Below are positions 1,919-30,784 of a DNA stretch of 64,000 nucleotides, one piece after another. Position 1 is the stretch's first letter, and the number at the start of each line of letters is the position of its first letter. The stretch comes from Alphaproteobacteria bacterium. Its GTDB lineage: Bacteria; Pseudomonadota; Alphaproteobacteria; Caulobacterales; Parvularculaceae. The DNA is taken from the NCBI GenBank assembly GCA_016125455.1, contig WGLS01000009.1:1-64000 (forward strand), read 5' to 3'. Made by a program: the position numbers and the translations under genes. A model generated the notes under the pieces. It was not told where the DNA came from, did not search any database, and saw only the letters and a program-made list of their open reading frames with translations.

Positions 1919-4333
<2,415 letters not shown>

Positions 4334-19050: not shown

Positions 19051-19081
19051 ATCCGGCGCGTCCTGAGCCACCCTTTCCCCA

Positions 19082-19140
19082 GCGCCGATTTGAACCCTTC
19101 AGCTTGCGGGCGCTTTATAAATGACGCTAAAGCGAAGGGG
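19082..19140 (+). ncRNA. SAM-II riboswitch (metX leader)
   Basis: S-adenosylmethionine-sensing leader. GCGCC (19082-19086) pairs with GGCGC (19109-19113) as stem P1. The loop begins GATTTGAA as in known SAM-II aptamers. CCCTTC (19095-19100) pairs with GAAGGG (19134-19139) to make the H-type pseudoknot. The conserved 3' strand has ATAAAT (19117-19122) and GCTAAA (19126-19131) in the expected order. The next gene is metX, the classical SAM-II target in alphaproteobacteria. I saw no T-run terminator between here and 19247, so control may act on translation or through less obvious structure. Confidence 0.9.
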
Positions 19141-19246
19141 AGATCGGCAAAGGCGGCTTGGCCGCTGTTGGCATTAGCTTCTCCTCCTTACGCCCAGGCT
19201 CATTCCCGCAAGTTCTGTCAATGCATCGGCGCTCAAGGAGCGGTTG

Positions 19247-20317
19247 ATGACGTATTTGGCGGCGGAAGCGGTACAGTTCGACACTGGTGCGGGCGGGGAG
19301 AGTGGTGCGGCCGGGTCGCCGGAGATCGGCCGTTTCCGGCCGGGAACCGGCGGGGCGACGGTCGTGCGGTTGCGGCCTCAGCCGGCGACGTTCGAAGAGT
19401 TCGAAGCCCCGTTCAGCGATGATTTTCTTGCCGTGCACGGCGGGTCGATCGGCGATTCGGGCGTGCGGTTGCGCCGGACAGGGCCGGCGGACGCGCCGGC
19501 GATCCTCGTGCTTGGCGGCATATCTGCCGGGCGTGGGGCGGCGTCAGCGCCCGGCGATCCCGGCTGGTGGCCGGCGATCGTGGGGCCGGCTGCGCCGATT
19601 GACACGACGCGCTTTGCGGTCTGGACCGCGGACTATTTTCCGACCGCGCCGAAGGGTCTCGTCGACCTCTCGCCGGGCGACTTCGCCCGGCAGTACGTGA
19701 AGGCGTTGCGCCGTTTCGGCGTTGAGCGTCTCCATGCCGCGGTTGGCGCCTCGTTCGGGGGCATGGTCGCGCTGGCCATGGCGTCCGCCTATCCGAGTTT
19801 CGTGGCGCGCCTGTCGGTCCTGTGCGCGGCGGACCGGCCGAGCCCGATGGGTCGGGCGCTGCGCCGAGCACAGCGTCGGATTCTCGAGCTCGGCCTCGCG
19901 TCGGGGCGGGGAGATGAAGCGACCGCTATCGCGCGGGAGCTGGCGATCGCCACCTATCGTACGTCGGCTGAATTCAATGTCCGGTTCGAAGACCCCTATG
20001 TCCTCGACAGTTATCTCGACCATCACGGGCGCAAGTACGGCGCCGCCGTTGATCCGCGCCGCTACCATTCCCTGTCGGCCGCCATCGACCGTCACCTTGT
20101 CGATGCGGCGACGATCTGCGCGCCGACCCAGCTAGTCGCCGTCGAGGAGGACCAGCTTGTCGCGATCGGCGATGTCCGCCGCTTCGCCGAAGCGCTTGGC
20201 GGCCCGGCGCGCCTCGACGTGATTTCATCCGTTTACGGACACGATGGATTTCTGAAGGAAACCGACCGGATAGGCCCGCTTCTGGGCGACTGGCTGGGAA
20301 AGGATGCGCACCAATGA
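19247..20317 (+). CDS. metX: Homoserine O-acyltransferase
   Basis: Activates homoserine by acyl transfer, the first committed step of methionine synthesis. 356 residues from the ATG at 19247, with AAGGAG six bases upstream. It has an alpha/beta-hydrolase fold: the nucleophile elbow AVGASFGGMVAL (Ser about 169), an acidic residue in QLVAVEEDQLVA, and the histidine in VYGHDGFLKE. Sequence alone does not settle acetyl versus succinyl donor; the short divergent form with a cystathionine-gamma-synthase-like partner would fit O-succinyl chemistry too. It lies under the SAM-II riboswitch and overlaps the next gene by ATGA. Confidence 0.87.
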   Translation: MTYLAAEAVQFDTGAGGESGAAGSPEIGRFRPGTGGATVVRLRPQPATFEEFEAPFSDDFLAVHGGSIGDSGVRLRRTGPADAPAILVLGGISAGRGAASAPGDPGWWPAIVGPAAPIDTTRFAVWTADYFPTAPKGLVDLSPGDFARQYVKALRRFGVERLHAAVGASFGGMVALAMASAYPSFVARLSVLCAADRPSPMGRALRRAQRRILELGLASGRGDEATAIARELAIATYRTSAEFNVRFEDPYVLDSYLDHHGRKYGAAVDPRRYHSLSAAIDRHLVDAATICAPTQLVAVEEDQLVAIGDVRRFAEALGGPARLDVISSVYGHDGFLKETDRIGPLLGDWLGKDAHQ

Positions 20318-21543
20318 GCTTTGACGGCCCCATTCCGTTTTCGTCGCCGCACCGGCGCCCGCGGCCGGCGCGCCATGCGCAAACCGCCCTTGCCGCAGCC
20401 GCCGTCGGCGCGCCCGCAGGACGGGCGCGGCCCGCCGCGCCGCCGCTGTTCCTGTCGGCGACCTATGCCTGGGACGACCCTGCGGAAAAGCCCGACTATG
20501 ACTATGCCCGGTCCGGCAATCCGACGCGCGCCGCGCTTGAGGCCGCGCTGGCGGAACTTGAGGGCGCCGCTGCGGGCGTCGTGACGGCGACCGGCATGGC
20601 TGCGGTCAATCTGCCGCTCTGCCTCGTCAAGCCGGGCGAGCGGATCATCGCGCCCCATGACTGTTATGGCGGCACCCACCGTCTGTTGCGGTCCCGCGCC
20701 GCCCTTGGGCACTTCGAGGTCGACTGGATCGACCAGACCGATCCGGCGGCGCTTGACGCGGCATTCGCGCGGCCGGCGCGGCTCGTGCTTATCGAAACGC
20801 CGAGCAACCCGCTGCTCCGCATTACCGATATTGAAGACGTGACGGCGCGGGCCCACCGGGCAGGCGCGATCGTCGTGGCGGACAACACGTTCCTGTCGCC
20901 CGCCTTGCAGAACCCGCTTGCGCTTGGTTGCGACGTGGTCATTCATTCGACGACGAAGTACCTCAACGGTCACAGCGACGTCGTCGGCGGCGCAGCGCTT
21001 GCGAAGGACGCCGAACTCGGCGCGGAACTCGCATGGTGGGCGAACTGCACCGGCGTTACCGGCAGCCCCTTCGACAGCTATCTCACCTTGCGCGGCGCAC
21101 GCACCCTGTTTGCCCGGATCGAGCGGCAGCAGGCGACCGCCGGGATCGTCGCGGAGAGCCTCGCCGCGGACGACCGCGTCGCGCGGGTTTATTATCCCGG
21201 CCTTTCGAGCCACAAGGGCCATGAACTCGCCGCCCGCCAGCAGCGTGGTTTTGGCGCGATGCTGTCGGCAGAGCTCCGCGCGGACGTCGACACGCTCTCG
21301 TTTCTCCGGGCGCTGCGTATTTTCAACGTTGCGGAATCCCTCGGCGGCTTCGAGAGCCTTGTGTGCTGCCCGGCAACGATGACCCACGCGGCGATGACGC
21401 CGGAGGCGCGCGCCACCGCGGGCATTTCCGACCGGCTCGTGCGCTTTTCGGTCGGGCTGGAGCACGCTGACGACCTGCTCGCCGACCTTGAAGATGCGCT
21501 CGACGCCGCCGCGGCTCCGGCGGAAAGATTGGTTAACGGATAA
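20314..21543 (+). CDS. PLP-dependent cystathionine gamma-synthase / O-acylhomoserine sulfhydrylase
   Basis: 409 residues of the Cys/Met-metabolism PLP family. It uses the MetX product to make cystathionine or homocysteine. Motifs: DYDYARSGNPTRAALE, TATGMAAV, PHDCYGGTHRL, IETPSNPLLRITDI, ADNTFLSP and the PLP-lysine segment HSTTKYLNGHSD (Lys215). SLGGFESL and the C-terminal VRFSVGLEHADDL also fit. It could be MetB or MetZ; residues distinguishing thiol partners were not resolved, so no symbol is given. It is translationally coupled to metX (ATGA) and so is expected to be under SAM control. Confidence 0.9.
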   Translation: MSFDGPIPFSSPHRRPRPARHAQTALAAAAVGAPAGRARPAAPPLFLSATYAWDDPAEKPDYDYARSGNPTRAALEAALAELEGAAAGVVTATGMAAVNLPLCLVKPGERIIAPHDCYGGTHRLLRSRAALGHFEVDWIDQTDPAALDAAFARPARLVLIETPSNPLLRITDIEDVTARAHRAGAIVVADNTFLSPALQNPLALGCDVVIHSTTKYLNGHSDVVGGAALAKDAELGAELAWWANCTGVTGSPFDSYLTLRGARTLFARIERQQATAGIVAESLAADDRVARVYYPGLSSHKGHELAARQQRGFGAMLSAELRADVDTLSFLRALRIFNVAESLGGFESLVCCPATMTHAAMTPEARATAGISDRLVRFSVGLEHADDLLADLEDALDAAAAPAERLVNG

Positions 21544-21706: not shown

Positions 21707-23422
21707 GTGAACCATTCGACGCCGGTCGTCCTGAAGTTTGCGTCGTCCGTACTGCGCCGGCGGAGCGACCTGCCGCGCGCTGTCAGCGAGGTCTATCGCC
21801 ATGTACGCGACGGCCGGAAGGTCGTTGCGATCGTGTCGGCGCTCGATGACGAAACCGAGCGCCTTGCCGCTGACGCCGCGGAGATCGGCGCGGGCCTTTC
21901 CAGCCGCCATGCCGCCGGGTTCATCGCCCTTGGCGAGGCGCGCGCCGCCTACGCGCTGGCGATCGCCTGCGACCACAGCGGCATCGCCGCGGACGTTCTT
22001 GAGGCGAAGGAACTGCGCCTTTCCGCGAGCGGTCCGTTCGACGACGCCTGGCCTACCGGCGTCGATCCGGCAGGGGTCATGGCGGCGCTTCAGCACGCCG
22101 AAGTCGTCATTGCGCCGGGCTATGTCGCCGTCGGCCCGGACGGCGGGCTTGTCCTGCTTGGCCGCGGCGGCGCCGACCTGACAGCGATCGTTTTGGCTGA
22201 TGCGCTGGGCGCCGGGGAGGCGACGTTCCTGACGCGCGTCGGCGGCCTGTTCGATCGCGATCCGCTGACCCCGGAGCGCATGCCGGCCCCGGATGCGAAA
22301 CGTTTCGATTCAGTGACCTGGGCTGGCGCGCGCGCGCTCGCCGGCGATCCGATCCAGCCAAAGGCGCTATCCTATGCGGAGCGGCGCGAGGTCGCGCTGC
22401 GCCTGATCGCGCCGGCGGCGAACGACGGCACGGTGATCGGTCCAACCGGGGCGCCGCCGCGGCCGGCGCCAACGCCGGCGCCTGTGCGGATCGGCGTCGC
22501 CGGCCTTGGCGTCGTGGGGGAAGGCGCCGCCCTGCGCATTATCTTCGAACCCTCCCGGTACGAACTGGCCGCGACGCTGGTCAGCGACGCCGGGAAGCCG
22601 CGCCACCGGCAGATCGACCCGTCCAAGATCACGACCGACATCGGCGCCTTCCTGGACTCCCGCCCCGAGGTCATCATCGACGCAATGTCGAGCGGCGCGG
22701 CAGGGCTTGAGCTGATCGAAGCGGCGCTCGCCCGCGGCATTTCCGTGGCGACGGCGAACAAGCAGGCGATTTGCGATGACCTGCCGCGGCTTGAGGCGCT
22801 GGCGAAGGCGAACAACGCCCGCCTTGGCTATTCGCCCTCCGTCGGCGGCGGCGCGCCGATGCTCGAGACCGCCCGCCGCGCAGCGGCGATCGGCGGCGTC
22901 GGCGACATCCATGCCGTGCTGAACGGCACGGTGAATTTCATCCTGTCCCAGGTCGCCGCCGGCGCCAGTTTCGATGCCGCGCTGGCGGCCGCGCAGGCGG
23001 CCGGCTTCGCCGAGGCCGATCCGAGCGCAGACCTTTCCGGCGATGACGCCCGCGCCAAGGGCAAGATCCTGGCCTATGCGGCCTATGGCGCCGATCCGGC
23101 GGCCGTAACGACCGACATCGAGGCGCTTGATGGTCCAAAAGCGGATGGATTTGCGCGGGAAGGCGGCGTCTGGCGGCAGGTTGCCAGGATCTCACGGCGC
23201 GGCGACGGCGCCCATGTGGAGGTGCGCTACGAGAAGGTCGATGGCGATCCGTTCATGATGAGCCTGTTTGGCGAGCAGAACGCCTTGCGGGTTGAGACCG
23301 CCGGCGGACTCCTCGTCTGCCGCGGACGGGGCGCGGGCCGCGCGCCCACCGTCGAAGCCGCGCTTGCGGACGTCGGCGAAATTATCAGGGAACGGAGTTT
23401 ATCGTCCGGCGCGCGTCCATGA
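21707..23422 (+). CDS. Degenerate-aspartokinase/homoserine dehydrogenase fusion
   Basis: 571 residues. The C-terminal ~310 are a homoserine dehydrogenase: Rossmann motif VAGLGVVG (266-271), ATANKQAI near 352, VGGGAPMLETAR and NGTVNFILSQV with the catalytic segment ADPSADLSGDDARAK. It reduces aspartate semialdehyde to homoserine. The N-terminal ~235 resemble an aspartokinase domain but are eroded: KFASSVL replaces KFGGTSV, TRVGGLFDRDP replaces the TDVDG motif, and only LLGRGGADLTAI is well kept. No ACT domains are seen. Kinase activity is doubtful. The start is GTG, with GGGGG eight bases upstream. It overlaps proB (ATGA). Confidence 0.88.
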   Translation: MNHSTPVVLKFASSVLRRRSDLPRAVSEVYRHVRDGRKVVAIVSALDDETERLAADAAEIGAGLSSRHAAGFIALGEARAAYALAIACDHSGIAADVLEAKELRLSASGPFDDAWPTGVDPAGVMAALQHAEVVIAPGYVAVGPDGGLVLLGRGGADLTAIVLADALGAGEATFLTRVGGLFDRDPLTPERMPAPDAKRFDSVTWAGARALAGDPIQPKALSYAERREVALRLIAPAANDGTVIGPTGAPPRPAPTPAPVRIGVAGLGVVGEGAALRIIFEPSRYELAATLVSDAGKPRHRQIDPSKITTDIGAFLDSRPEVIIDAMSSGAAGLELIEAALARGISVATANKQAICDDLPRLEALAKANNARLGYSPSVGGGAPMLETARRAAAIGGVGDIHAVLNGTVNFILSQVAAGASFDAALAAAQAAGFAEADPSADLSGDDARAKGKILAYAAYGADPAAVTTDIEALDGPKADGFAREGGVWRQVARISRRGDGAHVEVRYEKVDGDPFMMSLFGEQNALRVETAGGLLVCRGRGAGRAPTVEAALADVGEIIRERSLSSGARP

Positions 23423-24552
23423 AAAGGGCGCCATCCGCCGCGGCCGCCATCGTTGCCGCACGGCGGATCGTCATCAAGGTCGGCTCGTCGCTGATCGTCG
23501 GCGCGGACGGGCGGCCAAACGACGAATGGCTCGACGGCCTCGCGACGGACATCGCCGCCATGCGCCGGACCGGCAAGCAGGTCCTCGTCGTCAGTTCCGG
23601 CGCCGTGGCGATCGGCCGCCGGATGCTCGGTCGCGGCGGGCCGATGCGGCTTGAGCAAAAGCAGGCGGCGTCCGCCGTCGGCCAGGCGCGGCTGATCGAC
23701 GCCTGGGCGAGGGCGTTCGCGCCTCACGACGCGCCCGTTGGCCAGATGCTGCTTACCCTCGACGACACGACCCATCGTCGACGCTACCTGAACGCACGGG
23801 CCACGCTCGCCGCGCTCCTCGATGATGGCGCGGTGCCCGTCATCAACGAGAACGATACGCTCGCGACGAGCGAGATCCGGTATGGCGACAATGACCGTCT
23901 TGCCGCGCACGTCGCTGAGCTCGCCGGCGCTGACCTGCTCGTCATTCTTTCAGACGTGGACGGACTATATGCCCGCGACCCGAATGCCGATCCGGACGCT
24001 GAGTTCCTGAGCGTTGTCGAGACCATTGACGCCGCCGTCGAGGCGATGGCTGGCGGCACCCGCAAGGACGCCGGCGAAGGGGCGGGCGGCATGGCGACCA
24101 AGCTGGCTGCGGCGAAGATCGTCCGGGCGGCCGGTTGCGCGACCGTCGTCGCCAGAGGCGAAGGGCGGCCTTTCGCGCGAATTGATGGCGGCGGTCGGGC
24201 GACGCTGTTCTGCGCCGACGGCTCCGTGGAGGCGGCGCGCAAGACGTGGATCCGCAATCTGCAGCGCTCGGGCGGGGCGATCCGCATCGACGCCGGGGCT
24301 GTCGCCGCGCTGAAAGCGGGCGCGAGCCTGCTCCCGGTAGGGGTCGTCGCCGTCGAAGGCGCGTTCCAGCTTGGAGACGTCGTCGTCGTCGAGGGGCCGG
24401 AAGGGGCGCGGATCGCCAAGGGCCTTGTCGCCTTTGACGCCGATGATCTCCGCCGCGTCGCTGGGCTTGCCTCATCAGAGGTCGCCGCAGCGCTTGGCTA
24501 CCGCCGCCGGGACGCCGTCATCGACCGCGACGACCTCGTGCTGACGGAATGA
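23419..24552 (+). CDS. proB: Glutamate 5-kinase
   Basis: First step of proline synthesis: ATP-dependent phosphorylation of glutamate. 377 residues. The amino-acid-kinase domain has IVIKVGSSLIV, VVSSGAVAIGRRML, PVINENDTLATSEIRYGDND and DVDGLYARDP. GAGGMATKLAAAKI supplies the catalytic lysine region, and a C-terminal PUA domain follows from about residue 280. It overlaps the homoserine dehydrogenase fusion by four bases, so it is co-translated with threonine/methionine genes, not with proA, which is not in this window. Confidence 0.94.
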   Translation: MKRAPSAAAAIVAARRIVIKVGSSLIVGADGRPNDEWLDGLATDIAAMRRTGKQVLVVSSGAVAIGRRMLGRGGPMRLEQKQAASAVGQARLIDAWARAFAPHDAPVGQMLLTLDDTTHRRRYLNARATLAALLDDGAVPVINENDTLATSEIRYGDNDRLAAHVAELAGADLLVILSDVDGLYARDPNADPDAEFLSVVETIDAAVEAMAGGTRKDAGEGAGGMATKLAAAKIVRAAGCATVVARGEGRPFARIDGGGRATLFCADGSVEAARKTWIRNLQRSGGAIRIDAGAVAALKAGASLLPVGVVAVEGAFQLGDVVVVEGPEGARIAKGLVAFDADDLRRVAGLASSEVAAALGYRRRDAVIDRDDLVLTE

Positions 24553-24630
24553 TCGTTTTCCTTGGCGGTGGGTTGTCTTTCGTGAAAGTTCGCGCCAAAG
24601 TCTCGCAATCGCAGCATCCTGAGACATAAA

Positions 24631-24762
24631 ATGCTCATCCGCGACAACGAAATCGACGATATTAGCGCCAGGCGCTCTGAATCCGGCGTGCCGAGCCTTG
24701 GCGTCGTCGTAGTGCTCGTCTTGCGCGTCCTTATCGGGGACGCGGGGGAGGACGTTCGCTAG
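24631..24762 (+). CDS. ilv leader peptide (attenuator)
   Basis: A 43-residue peptide whose middle is GVVVVLVLRVLI, a dense run of Val, Leu and Ile codons. It ends at a TAG about 27 bases before a terminator hairpin in front of ilvC. Ribosome stalling at these codons when branched-chain aminoacyl-tRNAs are scarce would prevent the terminator, as in other ilv leaders. The ATG at 24631 has only a weak purine tract upstream. A shorter version starting at GTG 24688 (PSLGVVVV...) is equally possible and keeps the control codons. It is not expected to have a function other than being translated. Confidence 0.8.
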   Translation: MLIRDNEIDDISARRSESGVPSLGVVVVLVLRVLIGDAGEDVR

Positions 24763-24789
24763 CTGGCCAGGAACAGCACGACCGCCAAG

Positions 24790-24818
24790 CCCGCTTCCCA
24801 CCGGAAAGCGGGTTTTTT
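24790..24818 (+). terminator. Attenuator terminator upstream of ilvC
   Basis: CCCGCTT (24790-24796) pairs with AAGCGGG (24806-24812) around a nine-base loop, and six T residues (24813-24818) follow. The hairpin lies between the leader peptide and ilvC, where an attenuator is expected. Confidence 0.85.
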
Positions 24819-24872
24819 CATTTCTGACAACGCCCCCAGCGGGCCGAACCGGACCAAACGAAGGAATGACCG

Positions 24873-25880
24873 ATGAAAATCTACACCGACGACGACGCCA
24901 ATCCGGACGCCATGAAGGACGGGCCCGTGGCCATTATCGGTTATGGCAGCCAGGGGCGGGCCCATGCCTTGAACCTAGCCAATTCCGGGTGCGACGTGAT
25001 CGTCGGCGTGCGGCCGGGCGGCGCGGGCGATCGCAAGGCCAAGGCGGACGGCCTGAAGACCGCGCCGATCGCCGATGCGGCGAAGGCGGCGCGCACCATC
25101 GTCATCCTGACGCCGGATATGAGCCACGAAACATTGTACAAGGAGGAAATTGAGCCGAACCTCGCGCCGGGCGACGCCTTGTCGTTCGCGCACGGCTTTA
25201 CGATCCTTTACGGACGGGTCAAGCCGCCGAAGGACATTGACGTCATCATGGTCGCGCCAAAGGGGCCGGGCGATCTCGTCCGCCGCGAGTACGAGCGCGG
25301 CCGCGGCGTGCCCTGCCTGTTCGCCGTGCACCAGGACGCGACCGGCGCGGCGCGAGAACGGGCGCTCTCGTATGCGCGGGCGATCGGCGGCACCGCGGCG
25401 GGCGCGATCGAGACGACTTTCCGGGAAGAAACGGAGACGGATCTTTTCGGCGAGCAGGCGGTGCTGTGCGGCGGCGCGACTGAGCTGATCCTCGCAGGCT
25501 TTGAGACCCTGACCGACGCCGGCTATGCGCCCGAAGTCGCGTACTATGAGTGCCTGCACGAGCTGAAGCTTATCGTCGACCTGCTGTACGAAGGCGGCCT
25601 CGCGAAGATGCACGAATTCATCTCCGAAACCGCAAAGTACGGCGATCTTGTTTCCGGACCGCGGGTCATCGACGATGCGGCGCGCGAGCGGATGCGCGGC
25701 GTCCTGAAGGATATCCAGACCGGCGTGTTCGCCCAGAACTGGATCATCGAGAACCAGACCGGCAAGGTCCGGTATGAAAAGATGCTAGAAGCAGATCTTA
25801 ACCATCCGATAGAGAAGGTCGGCAAGGATCTCCGGGAACGAATGGCCTGGCTGAAGGGCGGCAACAGCAGCGCGGAGTGA
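24873..25880 (+). CDS. ilvC: Ketol-acid reductoisomerase, class I
   Basis: Second enzyme of valine/isoleucine synthesis: alkyl migration and NADPH reduction of acetolactate. 335 residues, the class I length. The N-terminal Rossmann motif is [19 protein letters not shown]. The knotted C-domain has [37 protein letters not shown] with magnesium-binding acidic residues, and [17 protein letters not shown]. The start follows AAGGA by seven bases. It is the first structural gene after the attenuator. Gene order ilvC-ilvB-ilvN differs from the more usual ilvB-ilvN-ilvC. Confidence 0.97.
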
Positions 25881-25885
25881 CGGCA

Positions 25886-27727
25886 ATGAGCGCGACGGAC
25901 GCGAAGGCGGCGCCGGCGGAAAAATCCGCATCGGCGTCAGCGGCGGCGAAGCCGGCGGCCGGGTCCTCCCGGCTCGTCAAGGCCGGAGCGGAACTGCTTC
26001 TCGATGCGCTTGAGGAGCAGGGCGTCGAAGTGATCTTCGGCTATCCCGGCGGGGCAGTGCTGCCGATCTACGACGCGCTGCATCGGCGCACGTCGATCCG
26101 GCACATTCTTGTGCGGCACGAACAGGGCGCCCTCCACATGGCTGAAGGCTATGCCCGGTCGACCGGCAAGCCTGGCGTCGCGCTGGTCACCTCGGGGCCA
26201 GGGGCCACGAACGCGGTCACCGGCCTTGCCGACGCGCTGCTCGATTCCATTCCCGTCGTCTGCATTTCCGGGCAGGTGGCGCGCAAGCTGATCGGCACCG
26301 ACGCCTTTCAGGAGTGCGACACCGTGGGCATAACAAGGGCGTGCACGAAGCATAATTACCTTGTGCCGTCGGCGCAGCGCCTGCCGACCATCGTTCATGA
26401 GGCGTTTCACGTCGCGGCGGAGGGCCGGCCCGGCCCGGTGCTGATCGACATTCCGAAGGACGTGCAGTTTGAGGAGGCGCCGTACGTCTCGAAGGCTGAC
26501 GCGGTCCTGCGGGAAGCGGGCGTCAAGGCGGAAATCCGCGCGAGCGACGTCGAGACGGCCGTCGACCTAATGCGCCGCGCGCGCCGGCCGGTTTTCTATA
26601 CCGGCGGCGGGGTCATCAATGCCGGAAAGGGCGCAAGCGACGGCCTGCGGGCGCTGGTGCGCGCAACCGGCTTCCCGATCACCTCGACGCTGATGGGCCT
26701 TGGCGCGTACCCTGCGTCCGACCCGCAATGGCTCGGCATGCTGGGCATGCATGGCAGCTATGAAGCCAACAACGCGATGCACGACTGCGACCTGATGATC
26801 TGCGTCGGCGCGCGGTTCGACGACCGGGTGACAGGACGCCTTGATGCGTTCTCGCCGGCGTCGCGGAAGATCCATATCGACATTGATCCGTCCTCGGTAA
26901 ACAAGAACGTGCCTGTCGATATCGCCATCATCGGCGATGCCGGCGAAGCGCTTCGCGCCCTGCTGGCCGAATGGGAGTCGCGCGCATCGGCGGAGGCGCC
27001 GGAGGAAGGCCGCCTCGATGACTGGCGCGCCCGGATAGAGGCATGGCGCGAGGTGAAGTCGTTCGCGTACGCCCGCTCGTCCGATGCGATCAAGCCGCAA
27101 CACGCGATTGAACGGCTGTACCAGCTGACGCGGGATCGCGATGTCTATGTCACGACGGAGGTCGGCCAGCACCAGATGTGGGCCGCCCAGCACTTCCATT
27201 TCGACGAGCCGAACCGCTGGATGACCTCGGGCGGCCTCGGCACCATGGGCTACGGTCTGCCCGCCGCGATCGGCGTCCAGGTCGCGCATCCGGACGCGCT
27301 CGTCGTCGACATTGCCGGCGACGGCTCGGTGCAGATGACCATGCAGGAAATGTCGACGGCGGTTCAGTTCGGCCTGCCGGTGAAAATCTTTATCCTGAAC
27401 AACAGTTATCTCGGCATGGTGCGCCAGTGGCAGGAGCTTCTGCACGAACGGCGTTACGCCCATTCCTATTCCGATGCGCTGCCCGATTTCGTGAAGCTCG
27501 CAGAAGCCTATGGCGGCTACGGTTTCCGAGCGACGCATCCTGATGAACTCGATGAAAAGATCATCGCGATGATCGACGCGCCAGGTCCGGCGCTGTTTGA
27601 TTGCGTCGTCACTGCGGAGGAAAACGTCTTCCCGATGATCCCGTCAGGCGCCGCGCACCATGAGATGCTGCTTGGCGGCGCGGTGACGGGCGAGGAAATC
27701 GGCGCCGAGGGACGCAAGCTCGTATGA
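25886..27727 (+). CDS. ilvB: Acetolactate synthase large subunit
   Basis: ThDP- and FAD-dependent catalytic subunit that makes acetolactate or acetohydroxybutyrate. 613 residues from the ATG at 25886, preferred over the GTG at 25877 that overlaps the ilvC stop. The first ~30 residues are an Ala/Lys-rich extension. Motifs: VIFGYPGGAVLPIYDAL, the catalytic Glu in ILVRHEQGALHMAEGYAR, TSGPGATNAVTGLADA, GARFDDRVTG, and the ThDP motif beginning GDGSVQMTMQE and ending with NNSYLGMVRQWQ. It ends overlapping ilvN by four bases. Confidence 0.97.
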   Translation: MSATDAKAAPAEKSASASAAAKPAAGSSRLVKAGAELLLDALEEQGVEVIFGYPGGAVLPIYDALHRRTSIRHILVRHEQGALHMAEGYARSTGKPGVALVTSGPGATNAVTGLADALLDSIPVVCISGQVARKLIGTDAFQECDTVGITRACTKHNYLVPSAQRLPTIVHEAFHVAAEGRPGPVLIDIPKDVQFEEAPYVSKADAVLREAGVKAEIRASDVETAVDLMRRARRPVFYTGGGVINAGKGASDGLRALVRATGFPITSTLMGLGAYPASDPQWLGMLGMHGSYEANNAMHDCDLMICVGARFDDRVTGRLDAFSPASRKIHIDIDPSSVNKNVPVDIAIIGDAGEALRALLAEWESRASAEAPEEGRLDDWRARIEAWREVKSFAYARSSDAIKPQHAIERLYQLTRDRDVYVTTEVGQHQMWAAQHFHFDEPNRWMTSGGLGTMGYGLPAAIGVQVAHPDALVVDIAGDGSVQMTMQEMSTAVQFGLPVKIFILNNSYLGMVRQWQELLHERRYAHSYSDALPDFVKLAEAYGGYGFRATHPDELDEKIIAMIDAPGPALFDCVVTAEENVFPMIPSGAAHHEMLLGGAVTGEEIGAEGRKLV

Positions 27728-28272
27728 GCCTCAACCCCTCTCAGTCGGTCTATCCGGTCGCCGGTCCCGCGGAGGAGGCCTCGGAATGCGTGCTCGCCAT
27801 CATCGTCGACAATGAGCCGGGCGCGCTGGCCCGGGTGGTCGGGCTTTTCTCAGCGCGGGGGTACAATATCGAGAGCCTGACGGTGGCGGAAACCGACGTG
27901 AAGCGGCACCGCTCGCGGATCACCATCGTCACCCGCGGCGCACAGTCGACGCTCGAGCAGATCAAGCTGCAACTGGGACGATTGATCCCGGTGCGGCGAG
28001 TCGTTGACGTCTCCGCCGAGGAAGACGCGCTGCAGCGGGAGCTTGCGCTGGTCAAGGTCGTAGGCGAAGGCGATCACCGGGTCGAAGCGATGCGCATGGC
28101 GGAGATCTTCCGGGCCCGCGCTGTCGACATCACCCATTCATCGTTCGTGTTCGAAGTGACCGGCGCGCGAGAAAAGGTCAACGCCTTCATCGACCTCATG
28201 CGGCCGCTTGGGCTGTCCGACGTCGCCCGCACAGGGGTCCTGTCGATCCGTCGGGGCATCGCGAAGGACTAG
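27724..28272 (+). CDS. ilvN: Acetolactate synthase regulatory subunit
   Basis: 182 residues. It activates the large subunit and confers valine feedback inhibition. The N-terminal ACT domain has LAIIVDNEPGALARVVGLFS and ARGYNIESLTVAETD. The C-terminal ALS_ss_C domain runs from about residue 95 (LALVKVVGE...) to the end. It is last in the ilvCBN operon, coupled by ATGA to ilvB. No obvious terminator follows in the 88-base convergent gap. Confidence 0.96.
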   Translation: MSLNPSQSVYPVAGPAEEASECVLAIIVDNEPGALARVVGLFSARGYNIESLTVAETDVKRHRSRITIVTRGAQSTLEQIKLQLGRLIPVRRVVDVSAEEDALQRELALVKVVGEGDHRVEAMRMAEIFRARAVDITHSSFVFEVTGAREKVNAFIDLMRPLGLSDVARTGVLSIRRGIAKD

Positions 28273-28360
28273 GCAGCGAAGGATTAGATTGCCAGGGGCC
28301 GGGCCGCGAGGCGCGATCCTGCAAAGGCGAATGCGGCCTCTTTGGCCGGCGCTTTGTTGG

Positions 28361-30784
28361 CTATGGCGCCGGCGTCAGGTCAATCACCTGGGCCGTTCCG
28401 ATCGCGTCAATATCAGTCTCGATGCGGAAATAGTCGCCGGCGAGCCATTTGCGCTGCAAGTCGTCATAGTGCGGAGACGTGAAGTGCCCTGACTGTCCGT
28501 TCGGCAGGGCGAACCACGACGCCGCCATATCGGACATGTCGAACACCATCCTGAGGCTCGGACCGCCGCCGCCAACGGCGCGCGCCGGCAGTTCGGCGTA
28601 GTCGAAATAGCCGACGTTCGGCGCGTCGGGGCCGCTCGCGCGCGGCGTCTCGCGGGAGAGGATCGGGCCGATCACCGGGAACGCGGCAAGCCCAAGGTGC
28701 GGGTGTTCCGCCACGTAGACCTCGCCCCAGGGCCTCGAAAGGGCCGCGCCGTTCGCCTCGTTCAGCAGCGTCGCCGTCGTGGCCAGGCTTTCGTTCAGCA
28801 TGCCCAGGCAGGTTTCGATCGCATCGGTGCGCGCGTCGTCGCAAATCTCGGTCAGGTCGTTCTCAAGAACGCTGGCGAGAAATTCCGGCTCGTATCGGAA
28901 GAAACGGTCGAACGCGTCGCCAAGGTCATCCTCGGCGATCGCACGGAGAAACTCGCGCGTCCAGGTCGCATAGACAAGCGGGCCCAGGGCCTCGGCGGTC
29001 CAGCGACCGTCCCAGTCCTTCAGGATGCGGATCGTCATTGCTTCGGCGTCGCCGGACGGTTCCGCCGCCAGCATCATGGATTTGATGGCGTCGACGTTTG
29101 TCGTGCCCACGTCGAGCTGGATCGCCTGAAATGACGCGACGTCGTGGGCGGGCGTGGCGTCGAGCAGGTCCTGGATCCGTTGCTGGCGCGACGGATTGGC
29201 GAAGTCGATTGCCCGGACGTAAGGGTATTCGTCCGGCGTCACCTTGGCGTTCGCCGTCACGAGGGCGCCTGACGACGGGTTGATGACGAGCGGCGTCAGC
29301 TCCTTCGGGATGTAGCCCCGCCAGTCGTTGGCGGCGTTCGCGCCGTCCGCAGGGGACAGCCCGCGTGTTTCGTGCCCGTCGGCGCGGATCGGCGCGCGGC
29401 CGACGACCATCAGGCCGGTCGTGCCGTCGCGGTGGGCGAAGACGAGGTTCTGCACCGGGCCTACATACTTGTCGCGCAGGACCTCGACGAATTCGTCGAC
29501 CGTAGCCGGTTCGACATTGTTCATCATGGCGCTGATCGTCGTGTCGATCTCGGTGAGGCTCGTCCATTGCAGCGCAGTGCGGACGACCGCCGGGTCGGAC
29601 CAGTCGCCCGACAGCTCCTCGGTCAGGACCGGCCCGTGGCGCGACCGCAGGAAGGTGCGCTGAACGTCCTTGCCGAAGCGCACCTTGATGGTCTCCTCGC
29701 GGGCGTCAAATCGCGCCCAGCCGTCAGGCGTCGCGTACTGCATCGCGTCTTCTGGGTTCACGCGCTCAAGATAGAGATCCTGCACGTCCGTGCGGTTGTT
29801 CGTGACGCCCCATGAAATGTCGTCATTGCGGCCGACGATGACCGCGGGAATGCCGGGGATGGTCGCGCCAATGACGTTGCGGTCGCCAATTTTCAGGTGA
29901 GCCAGGTACCAGAAGCCGGGCATTGAAAAGGCGAGATGCGGATCGTCGGCGAGCATTGGAGCGCCGGATGTCGTCCTTGATCCGGCGACGACCCAGTCGT
30001 TCGAATTTTCCTGGTCCGGCGCGGAAAGGATTTTCGCAACGCCCTGATCGCCCGCACGGCCATCTTCCGCCCCATCGGCCGGCGCCATCGGCAGGCCGAG
30101 CGTGCGGGCGAGATCCGGCCACGCCATCGCCACATGGCCTTCAGCCGGATATGGCGGCAGGAACGCCCGCGCAATCGCGTCCGACGCCTTGGCGCCGAGG
30201 CGGGCCCGCGTCGTCTCCGTACGGAGGTTGAGGCTGAGGGTCAGCCAGATCGCCTTTTGCACATACAGGCTGTCGGTTGGCGCCCATGGTTCCGGGCGCG
30301 TCAGGGTGAGGACATATTCTGCTGGCGGGCGGTACGCGTCGGAGGCAATCCAGGCATTCACGCCGTCCGCGTAGGCCTCAAGCTTCTCCTTGTCGGATGC
30401 CGGCATCGCCGCCCAGCTCGCCTCCACGTTTGGCGCGAACTGAAGGGAGCGATGGTAGATGTCCGCGTCGAGGGCAATGTTGCCGAAGATTTCCGCCAGC
30501 CGCCCCTGGGGCGATCGGCGGCTGAGGTCCATCTGCCAGAGCCGGTCCTGGGCGTGGGCGAAGCCGAGCGCGAAATAGGCGTCCGTGGGGTTCGCCGCCA
30601 CGATGTGCGGCACGGCGTTGTCGTCGCGGTGGATGCTGACGGGGGCGGCCAGGCCGGCGACGTCGAAGGAACCGTCATAGGCCGCGCCGGCCGACCGAGC
30701 CCGTGTCCACTGGGCGGCCGCGAACAAGACCGCGGCGGCGAGAACCAACAAAAGCGCAAAAAGCCCCCAACGAACGAATCGCAT
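28361..30784 (-). CDS. Penicillin acylase-type Ntn hydrolase
   Basis: 807 residues from the ATG at 30784 (GGGGGAAGGA just upstream). A longer frame to 30976 overlaps the promoter zone of hemC. An N-terminal hydrophobic segment exports or anchors it. The precursor is expected to cleave itself before Ser261 in ENS-NDWVVAGSRTTSG, whose serine then becomes the catalytic N-terminal residue. LADDPHL, GRNDDISWGVTNNRTDVQDL and the HGPVL block are typical. The family hydrolyses amides such as beta-lactam side chains or acyl-homoserine lactones; which one applies here cannot be read from the sequence. Confidence 0.92.
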   Translation of the reverse strand: MRFVRWGLFALLLVLAAAVLFAAAQWTRARSAGAAYDGSFDVAGLAAPVSIHRDDNAVPHIVAANPTDAYFALGFAHAQDRLWQMDLSRRSPQGRLAEIFGNIALDADIYHRSLQFAPNVEASWAAMPASDKEKLEAYADGVNAWIASDAYRPPAEYVLTLTRPEPWAPTDSLYVQKAIWLTLSLNLRTETTRARLGAKASDAIARAFLPPYPAEGHVAMAWPDLARTLGLPMAPADGAEDGRAGDQGVAKILSAPDQENSNDWVVAGSRTTSGAPMLADDPHLAFSMPGFWYLAHLKIGDRNVIGATIPGIPAVIVGRNDDISWGVTNNRTDVQDLYLERVNPEDAMQYATPDGWARFDAREETIKVRFGKDVQRTFLRSRHGPVLTEELSGDWSDPAVVRTALQWTSLTEIDTTISAMMNNVEPATVDEFVEVLRDKYVGPVQNLVFAHRDGTTGLMVVGRAPIRADGHETRGLSPADGANAANDWRGYIPKELTPLVINPSSGALVTANAKVTPDEYPYVRAIDFANPSRQQRIQDLLDATPAHDVASFQAIQLDVGTTNVDAIKSMMLAAEPSGDAEAMTIRILKDWDGRWTAEALGPLVYATWTREFLRAIAEDDLGDAFDRFFRYEPEFLASVLENDLTEICDDARTDAIETCLGMLNESLATTATLLNEANGAALSRPWGEVYVAEHPHLGLAAFPVIGPILSRETPRASGPDAPNVGYFDYAELPARAVGGGGPSLRMVFDMSDMAASWFALPNGQSGHFTSPHYDDLQRKWLAGDYFRIETDIDAIGTAQVIDLTPAP

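Follow-up and report, generated by a model that had tools for sequence, protein, structure and literature searches.

Positions 24569–24872 of the 64,000-nt stretch of DNA analysed here (the window) very probably constitute a ribosome-mediated transcription attenuator of the proteobacterial ilv type, a reading for which a short ORF, its codon bias, a terminator, mutually exclusive stems and conservation were computed. From these features we infer transcription start, translation, stalling, termination and readthrough, as well as which of Val, Leu and Ile is the most important amino acid. Conservation, exclusive stems and earlier alphaproteobacterial descriptions support, at the level of sequence, what the initial annotation proposed: an ilv leader and attenuator preceding ilvC. 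The element is a further example of a long-known control device and not a new principle; with it, the branched-chain amino acid genes of an alphaproteobacterial genus that has received little study, represented here by the window's genome (G000) and two congeners (G001 and G002), gain a likely means of control.

Table 1 Coordinates of the putative attenuator, the genes behind it and the related leuA leader (window positions unless stated)
Feature	Position	Strand	Basis or remark
Conserved block, possible promoter/transcription start region	24569..24615	+	Conserved window vs G002
Leader peptide ORF	24631..24762	+	43 codons; G002 frame from matching ATG also 43 codons
Control codons	24703..24735	+	Residues 25–35, VVVVLVLRVLI; Val/Leu-rich run in both congener leaders too
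Stem 1:2 over last control codons	24724–24732 with 24736–24744	+	Fold of 24698–24762; nearly identical in G002
Segment 2, predicted antiterminator 5' arm	24736–24740, 24742–24746	+	Pairs with 24790–24799 once RNA 5' of 24736 is omitted
Segment 3	24790..24799	+	Pairs with segment 2 in the antiterminator, with segment 4 in the terminator
Intrinsic terminator	Stem 24787–24815, six T 24813–24818	+	Own script and fold; also in G002 and G001
ilvC, ketol-acid reductoisomerase	24873..25880	+	NF004017, TIGR00465 (NCBIfam)
ilvB, acetolactate synthase large subunit	25877..27727	+	NF006581, TIGR00118; GTG start listed, ATG 25886 also possible
ilvN, acetolactate synthase small subunit	27724..28272	+	NF008864, TIGR00119
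leuA leader of the genus	G000:C22, ~280–510 bases upstream of leuA match (L159)		Also L163, L164

Leader ORF and upstream block

The leader region is the gap between proB, which ends at 24552, and ilvC, which starts at 24873, a site upstream of branched-chain biosynthesis genes that is kept in relatives. The 43-codon frame initially annotated before ilvC-ilvB-ilvN was recovered, with the three genes identified by NCBIfam models; it runs on the forward strand from ATG 24631 to TAG 24760–24762 and would encode MLIRDNEIDDISARRSESGVPSLGVVVVLVLRVLIGDAGEDVR. The bias of its codons towards the end products of the operon, also claimed at the outset, held up: in the core of the ORF, GVVVVLVLRVLI, 10 of 12 clustered residues are Val, Leu or Ile (with one Ile codon in the run), and among 678 ORFs of 12–70 aa on both strands of the window the leader alone exceeds 7 per 12. 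Dinucleotide shuffles of the forward strand from 24553 to 24786 (n = 3000) peaked at 8 of 12, a value reached by 10 of them, and none had 10. By eye, no clear Shine–Dalgarno sequence was seen before ATG 24631. The conserved block farther upstream contains TTGT at 24573–24576, lacks a good consensus −10 and may be the promoter, a role that we can only infer because a sigma-70 consensus scan of 23400–28600 found none.

Terminator and alternative folds

Folding of 24775–24820, as if a ribosome stood at the stop codon, yielded the terminator with its U-tract between the leader and the first structural gene (−17.4 kcal/mol, z −3.2, equalled by 1 of 200 shuffles); the gap 24553–24872 as a whole gave a z of only −1.7, with 3 of 100 shuffles equally stable. 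The hairpin had been placed 27 bases past the frame and credited with six T residues; the T residues are there, and the distance is right if the stem is counted from 24790, but counting from 24787 gives 24 bases. Our own script located 11 terminator-like sites on the forward strand of the window and 2 on the reverse, 13 in all, this one alone being preceded by a Val/Leu/Ile-rich ORF, and a separate consensus terminator scan of 23400–28600 returned 9 sites, the hairpin at 24787–24818 not among them.

Segment 2 begins at the first base past the last control codon. When 24698–24820 was folded entire, stem 1:2 formed together with the terminator (−59.3 kcal/mol, z −3.5, equalled by 0 of 200 shuffles); when the upstream RNA was omitted, mimicking its masking by a stalled ribosome, the antiterminator became the minimum-energy fold of 24736–24820 (−35.8 kcal/mol). 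In the folding model, leaving out the control codons is thus what flips the predicted structure from terminator to antiterminator. The segment 2–3 duplex of the window was equalled or bettered by 21 of 200 shuffles (18 for G002, 36 for G001) in this region of high G+C content; with shuffles doing so well, pairing within this single sequence is a weak test.

A structured RNA at 24698–24820 would also be expected if a metabolite- or tRNA-binding element, similar to a riboswitch or T-box, regulated the genes without ribosome stalling and the ORF were secondary. We consider this so improbable as to be nearly negligible: no Rfam family reached its gathering score in the gap upstream of ilvC, and the feature that recurs across genera is the Val/Leu/Ile run shortly before the stem, though our script selected for such runs. 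Riboswitch and T-box candidates were rejected after a whole-window Rfam scan that gave only SAM_alpha and a local scan (E up to 10) that gave neither type. The best of four local hits was to Trp_leader (RF00513), itself an attenuator family, at 20.4 bits against a gathering score of 41. Since no Rfam family is at cut-off on the leader, a new family could be built with the help of the present collection of leaders.

Proposed mechanism

In the attenuation that we favour, RNA polymerase would initiate upstream of 24631 and a ribosome would translate the 43-codon leader behind it. With charged Val-tRNA and Leu-tRNA plentiful, the ribosome would reach the stop codon and cover segment 2, leaving segments 3 and 4 to form the terminator at 24787–24818 and keep ilvC-ilvB-ilvN off. 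With Val or Leu short, it would stall within 24703–24723 and mask segment 1, so that segment 2 (24736–24746) could pair with segment 3 (24790–24799), the terminator would be blocked and the operon would be read. The size of the ribosome footprint, from which we judged which stall positions leave segment 2 free, and the arrangement of the codons point to the Val-rich 5' half of the run as the place where stalling would matter most, because a ribosome farther along would cover segment 2.

An attenuator of this kind might have a second function in trans if the RNA left by termination, or the leader peptide, also acted on other targets, as excerpts from PMC10117765 describe for rnTrpL/peTrpL of another alphaproteobacterium, Sinorhizobium meliloti. 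For the window such a role is very unlikely, as little of the peptide is conserved between congeners beyond the control run and the C-terminus, which the RNA constrains.

Conservation within the genus

Both congeners have a leader, then a terminator, then ilvC at matching positions, with 26 and 25 nt between stop codon and stem, vs 24 in the window. The matching frame of G002 ends in LRVLPVVLTVRVLIGDAREDVG (listed by the script in a longer version that starts upstream), and that of G001 contains VLVGDVLVGDLLVG. In the alignment of the window with G002, conservation is highest over the start codon region, segments 1–2 and the terminator, and the remainder of the ORF has drifted. Alignment with related genomes had been suggested as a check for conserved Val/Leu codons and paired stems; the stems, the terminator and the richness and position of the run are kept, but single Val/Leu codons are not, differing even among congeners. 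The G001 leader has a control run (L003 ~2705–2749, minus strand) that by eye consists of three near-identical 15-base units, GTGCTTGTGGGCGAT, and looks as if its codons had been multiplied by tandem duplication.

A DNA search of 41 genomes with the entire gap matched, besides the window, within the leader of G002 only; G001 was matched at the start of ilvC alone and G014 on another contig. As whole-gap DNA matches were so few, the wider comparison was anchored on ilvC.

Leaders beyond the genus

We sought ilvC in 61 related genomes, of which 55 had a match and 30 loci were taken for comparison, and in a named genome collection, from which the best 80 of 576 confirmed loci were used; stretches upstream of ilvD were added. 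From a starting set of 152 loci, 17 were unscored and 24 more lacked upstream room, leaving 111. Twelve loci had been excluded beforehand (six copies of the window or its congeners, L034, L144, L151 and the paralogue loci L116, L118 and L127), and five had no ilvC or ilvD head for the script (L142, L143, L145, L146 and L147). The script called a leader where an ORF ended near a terminator and had 7 or more Val/Leu/Ile among 12 residues, antiterminator pairing being unused; L152, a repeat of L122, was omitted from the pairing and arm-swap tests.

Leaders were found at 52 of the 111 ilvC/ilvD heads vs 4 of the 3495 control windows that these loci supplied, the former being a count of loci, not species, because some overlap in part (e.g. 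L024/L084/L121 and L115/L117/L148), and the latter possibly including L047 and L048, real leaders beyond the limits of the script. Among the 59 loci at which the script found no leader, L047 and L048 have one, as does L024 by eye (with L084 and L121, on the same contig); the remaining loci may truly be without. The stop codon and stem are 16–40 nt apart over the 52 leaders found, and 20–38 nt apart in Parvularculaceae. Of the 52 leaders formed by the window and 51 loci, 38 had segment 2–3 pairing that ranked in the top 10 of 200 shuffles, and 26 ranked in the top 2; the centre of segment 2 lay a median of 17.5 nt before the stop codon (52 leaders). Taken with the predicted fold switch, the 38 of 52 leaders argue for an antiterminator that excludes the terminator and would be freed by stalling.

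When terminator arms were permuted among the 52 leaders, 0 of 10000 trials reached the observed fit. The same arm-swap test inside Parvularculaceae (20 leaders) was not significant (2388 of 10000), and the co-variation of segments 2 and 3 therefore lies between clades; examples are CCCCGCACCGGC with AGCCGGTGCGGGG in L071 and CCCGCTCCC with GGGGAGCGG in L035. That segment 2 follows segment 3 across clades speaks against the hairpin being a mere terminator of the upstream hom-proB and the ORF a chance frame in G+C-rich intergenic DNA, and so do the codon run, which has no equal in the window or its shuffles, and the recurrence of leader, spacing and terminator before ilvD or ilvC at loci where the upstream neighbour is a gene other than proB (e.g. 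a divergent ilvD in L042, L043, L053 and L099). The hairpin does lie between proB and ilvC, on the same strand, and might also end proB transcripts; as the whole explanation, we judge a chance frame before a proB terminator highly improbable and rejected it on ORF uniqueness and conservation.

Operon layout and the loss of ilvD

The initial annotation ascribed the position of the attenuator before ilvC to an inverted gene order, an explanation that the cluster maps contradict: sister genera have the order leader-ilvD-ilvC-ilvB-ilvN, with leuA next where looked for, and ilvD is absent from the cluster here. In the sister genera g2, g3 and g6, ilvD precedes ilvC in every mapped locus and the leader, where found, precedes ilvD; the script found none for G023, G029 and G036 (L130, L132 and L134). 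In the family genera g4 and g7, ilvC stands in other gene contexts. In the window's genus the gap from proB to ilvC (~320–500 bases), which holds the leader, matched no other gene in any of the three genomes, and ilvC heads the operon because ilvD has gone from the cluster. In all three members ilvD is located elsewhere; the congeners' copies are 85% identical to that of the window's genome, which is ~50% identical to the type in the operons of the sister genera. Within 700 bases upstream of the stand-alone ilvD, the script found neither a terminator nor a Val/Leu/Ile-rich ORF in the three genomes. The leader has stayed at the head of the operon while the gene behind it changed. Robiginitomaculum (G040, L024) seems to have lost ilvD in the same way; in its relative G048, ilvD still stands behind the leader.

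The genes before the leader in L123 (G033) and L035 are, by eye, hom, proB and proA, and a family search confirmed proA of G033 and G011. proA, next after proB in sister genera, is missing from the window's cluster; neither G000 (96% complete) nor G001 (66% complete) gave a proA match above cut-off, and G002 has one on another contig.

leuA and the weighting of control codons

In G016, G011 and further loci leuA follows ilvN. In the members of the window's genus it lies on another contig, in 3 of 3 genomes behind its own terminator and an upstream ORF with a Leu run (LLLLLGLL, LLLLLMLL and LLLLLS). In G016 and G011, where leuA comes after the ilv genes, no terminator was found before it, and G011 alone has a weak ORF (6 of 12). 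The comparison of gene orders points to one attenuated operon having been split into two with different codon content. The fuller scenario, a breakup of an ancestral leader-ilvD-ilvC-ilvB-ilvN-leuA operon that left a Val-weighted attenuator at ilvC, a Leu-run attenuator at leuA and a stand-alone, unattenuated ilvD, is offered tentatively, as possible but rather doubtful. Under that scenario, leader codon content would track operon content in evolution. ilvC-ilvB-ilvN and leuA, as two units each with its own leader, amount to a small natural experiment on control codons vs gene content.

A general rule that leuA in the operon goes with a Leu-richer leader was unsupported. The 31 loci with a leuA match at most 5.5 kb after ilvC had means of 5.5 Leu and 2.6 Val per 14 residues vs 5.0 Leu and 3.2 Val at 5 loci with room but no leuA match, without a clear difference; L041 (Parvularcula), with 4 Leu, 6 Val and a leuA match 3.5 kb on, disfavours the rule in its simple form. 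Members of the window's genus each have 4 Leu and 5–6 Val, the three genomes not being independent. Leu outnumbers Val in the control runs of 8 of 10 Marinicaulis-side leaders and 3 of 7 Parvularcula-side leaders. At seven loci with leuA 24–60 bases past ilvC (L062, L071, L075, L080, L081, L082 and L103), the leaders have 6–8 Leu and 0–3 Val per 14 residues; L095, with a leuA layout like that of the L062 group, has 4 Leu and 2 Val.

Comparison with known leaders

Caulobacter crescentus is an alphaproteobacterium of the window's order in GTDB. Its ilvBN leader, compared here by description only, resembles that of the window in its tandem codons for branched-chain amino acids and in a rho-independent terminator placed ahead of acetolactate synthase genes, but it lies before ilvBN and not ilvC and is described with Ile/Val codons; the excerpts of PMC4117421 that describe this ilv leader in Caulobacter credit ilvBN attenuation to Tarleton, Malakooti and Ely 1994. 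PMC1273637 refers to an ilvB leader peptide of alphaproteobacteria as previously described, with credit to Vitreschak and others 2004, and PMC1183508 names ilvGMEDA and ilvBN of E. coli and Salmonella as established cases of attenuation. Among the matches listed in a literature search on ilvC leaders and Parvularcula attenuators, which covered few subscription journals, none concerned Parvularculaceae.

E. coli ilvL (NC_000913.3 3950322–3950420) shares with the window a short Ile/Val/Leu-rich leader, MTALLRVISLVVISVVVIIIPPCGAALGRGKA, and a terminator, 21 nt past the leader, before the ilv operon (ilvXGMEDA), but its first gene is ilvX/ilvG, its leader has 32 aa and its Ile codons are many more. 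Some relatives of the window have a C-terminus that resembles E. coli ilvL, for example L037 (ISPPWGAAMERTR). Leaders in sister genera of the Parvularculaceae have the anatomy seen in the window but with ilvD between leader and ilvC; leaders of the same anatomy are found at Sphingomonas, Lysobacter, Thermomonas and Stenotrophomonas loci, there immediately ahead of ilvC. Actinobacterial ilvB leader peptides are also encoded by short ORFs that contain a run of Ile, Val and Leu and are accompanied by a terminator ahead of ilvB; according to excerpts from PMC1262725, unlike in the window, the ORF overlaps the hairpin, and codon replacement in Streptomyces coelicolor was without effect.

Other features of the window

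A single ORF at 21707–23422 matches aspartate kinase models over residues ~7–249 and homoserine dehydrogenase models over ~259–564, all below curated cut-offs; visual inspection shows this fusion in L123 too and a shorter dehydrogenase ORF in L035. The SAM_alpha (SAM-II) riboswitch lies at 19072–19150, its 37.3 bits barely above the gathering score of 36, and is followed, by eye, by a homoserine acyltransferase-like gene and one resembling PLP enzymes of Cys/Met metabolism (ORF 20314–21543).
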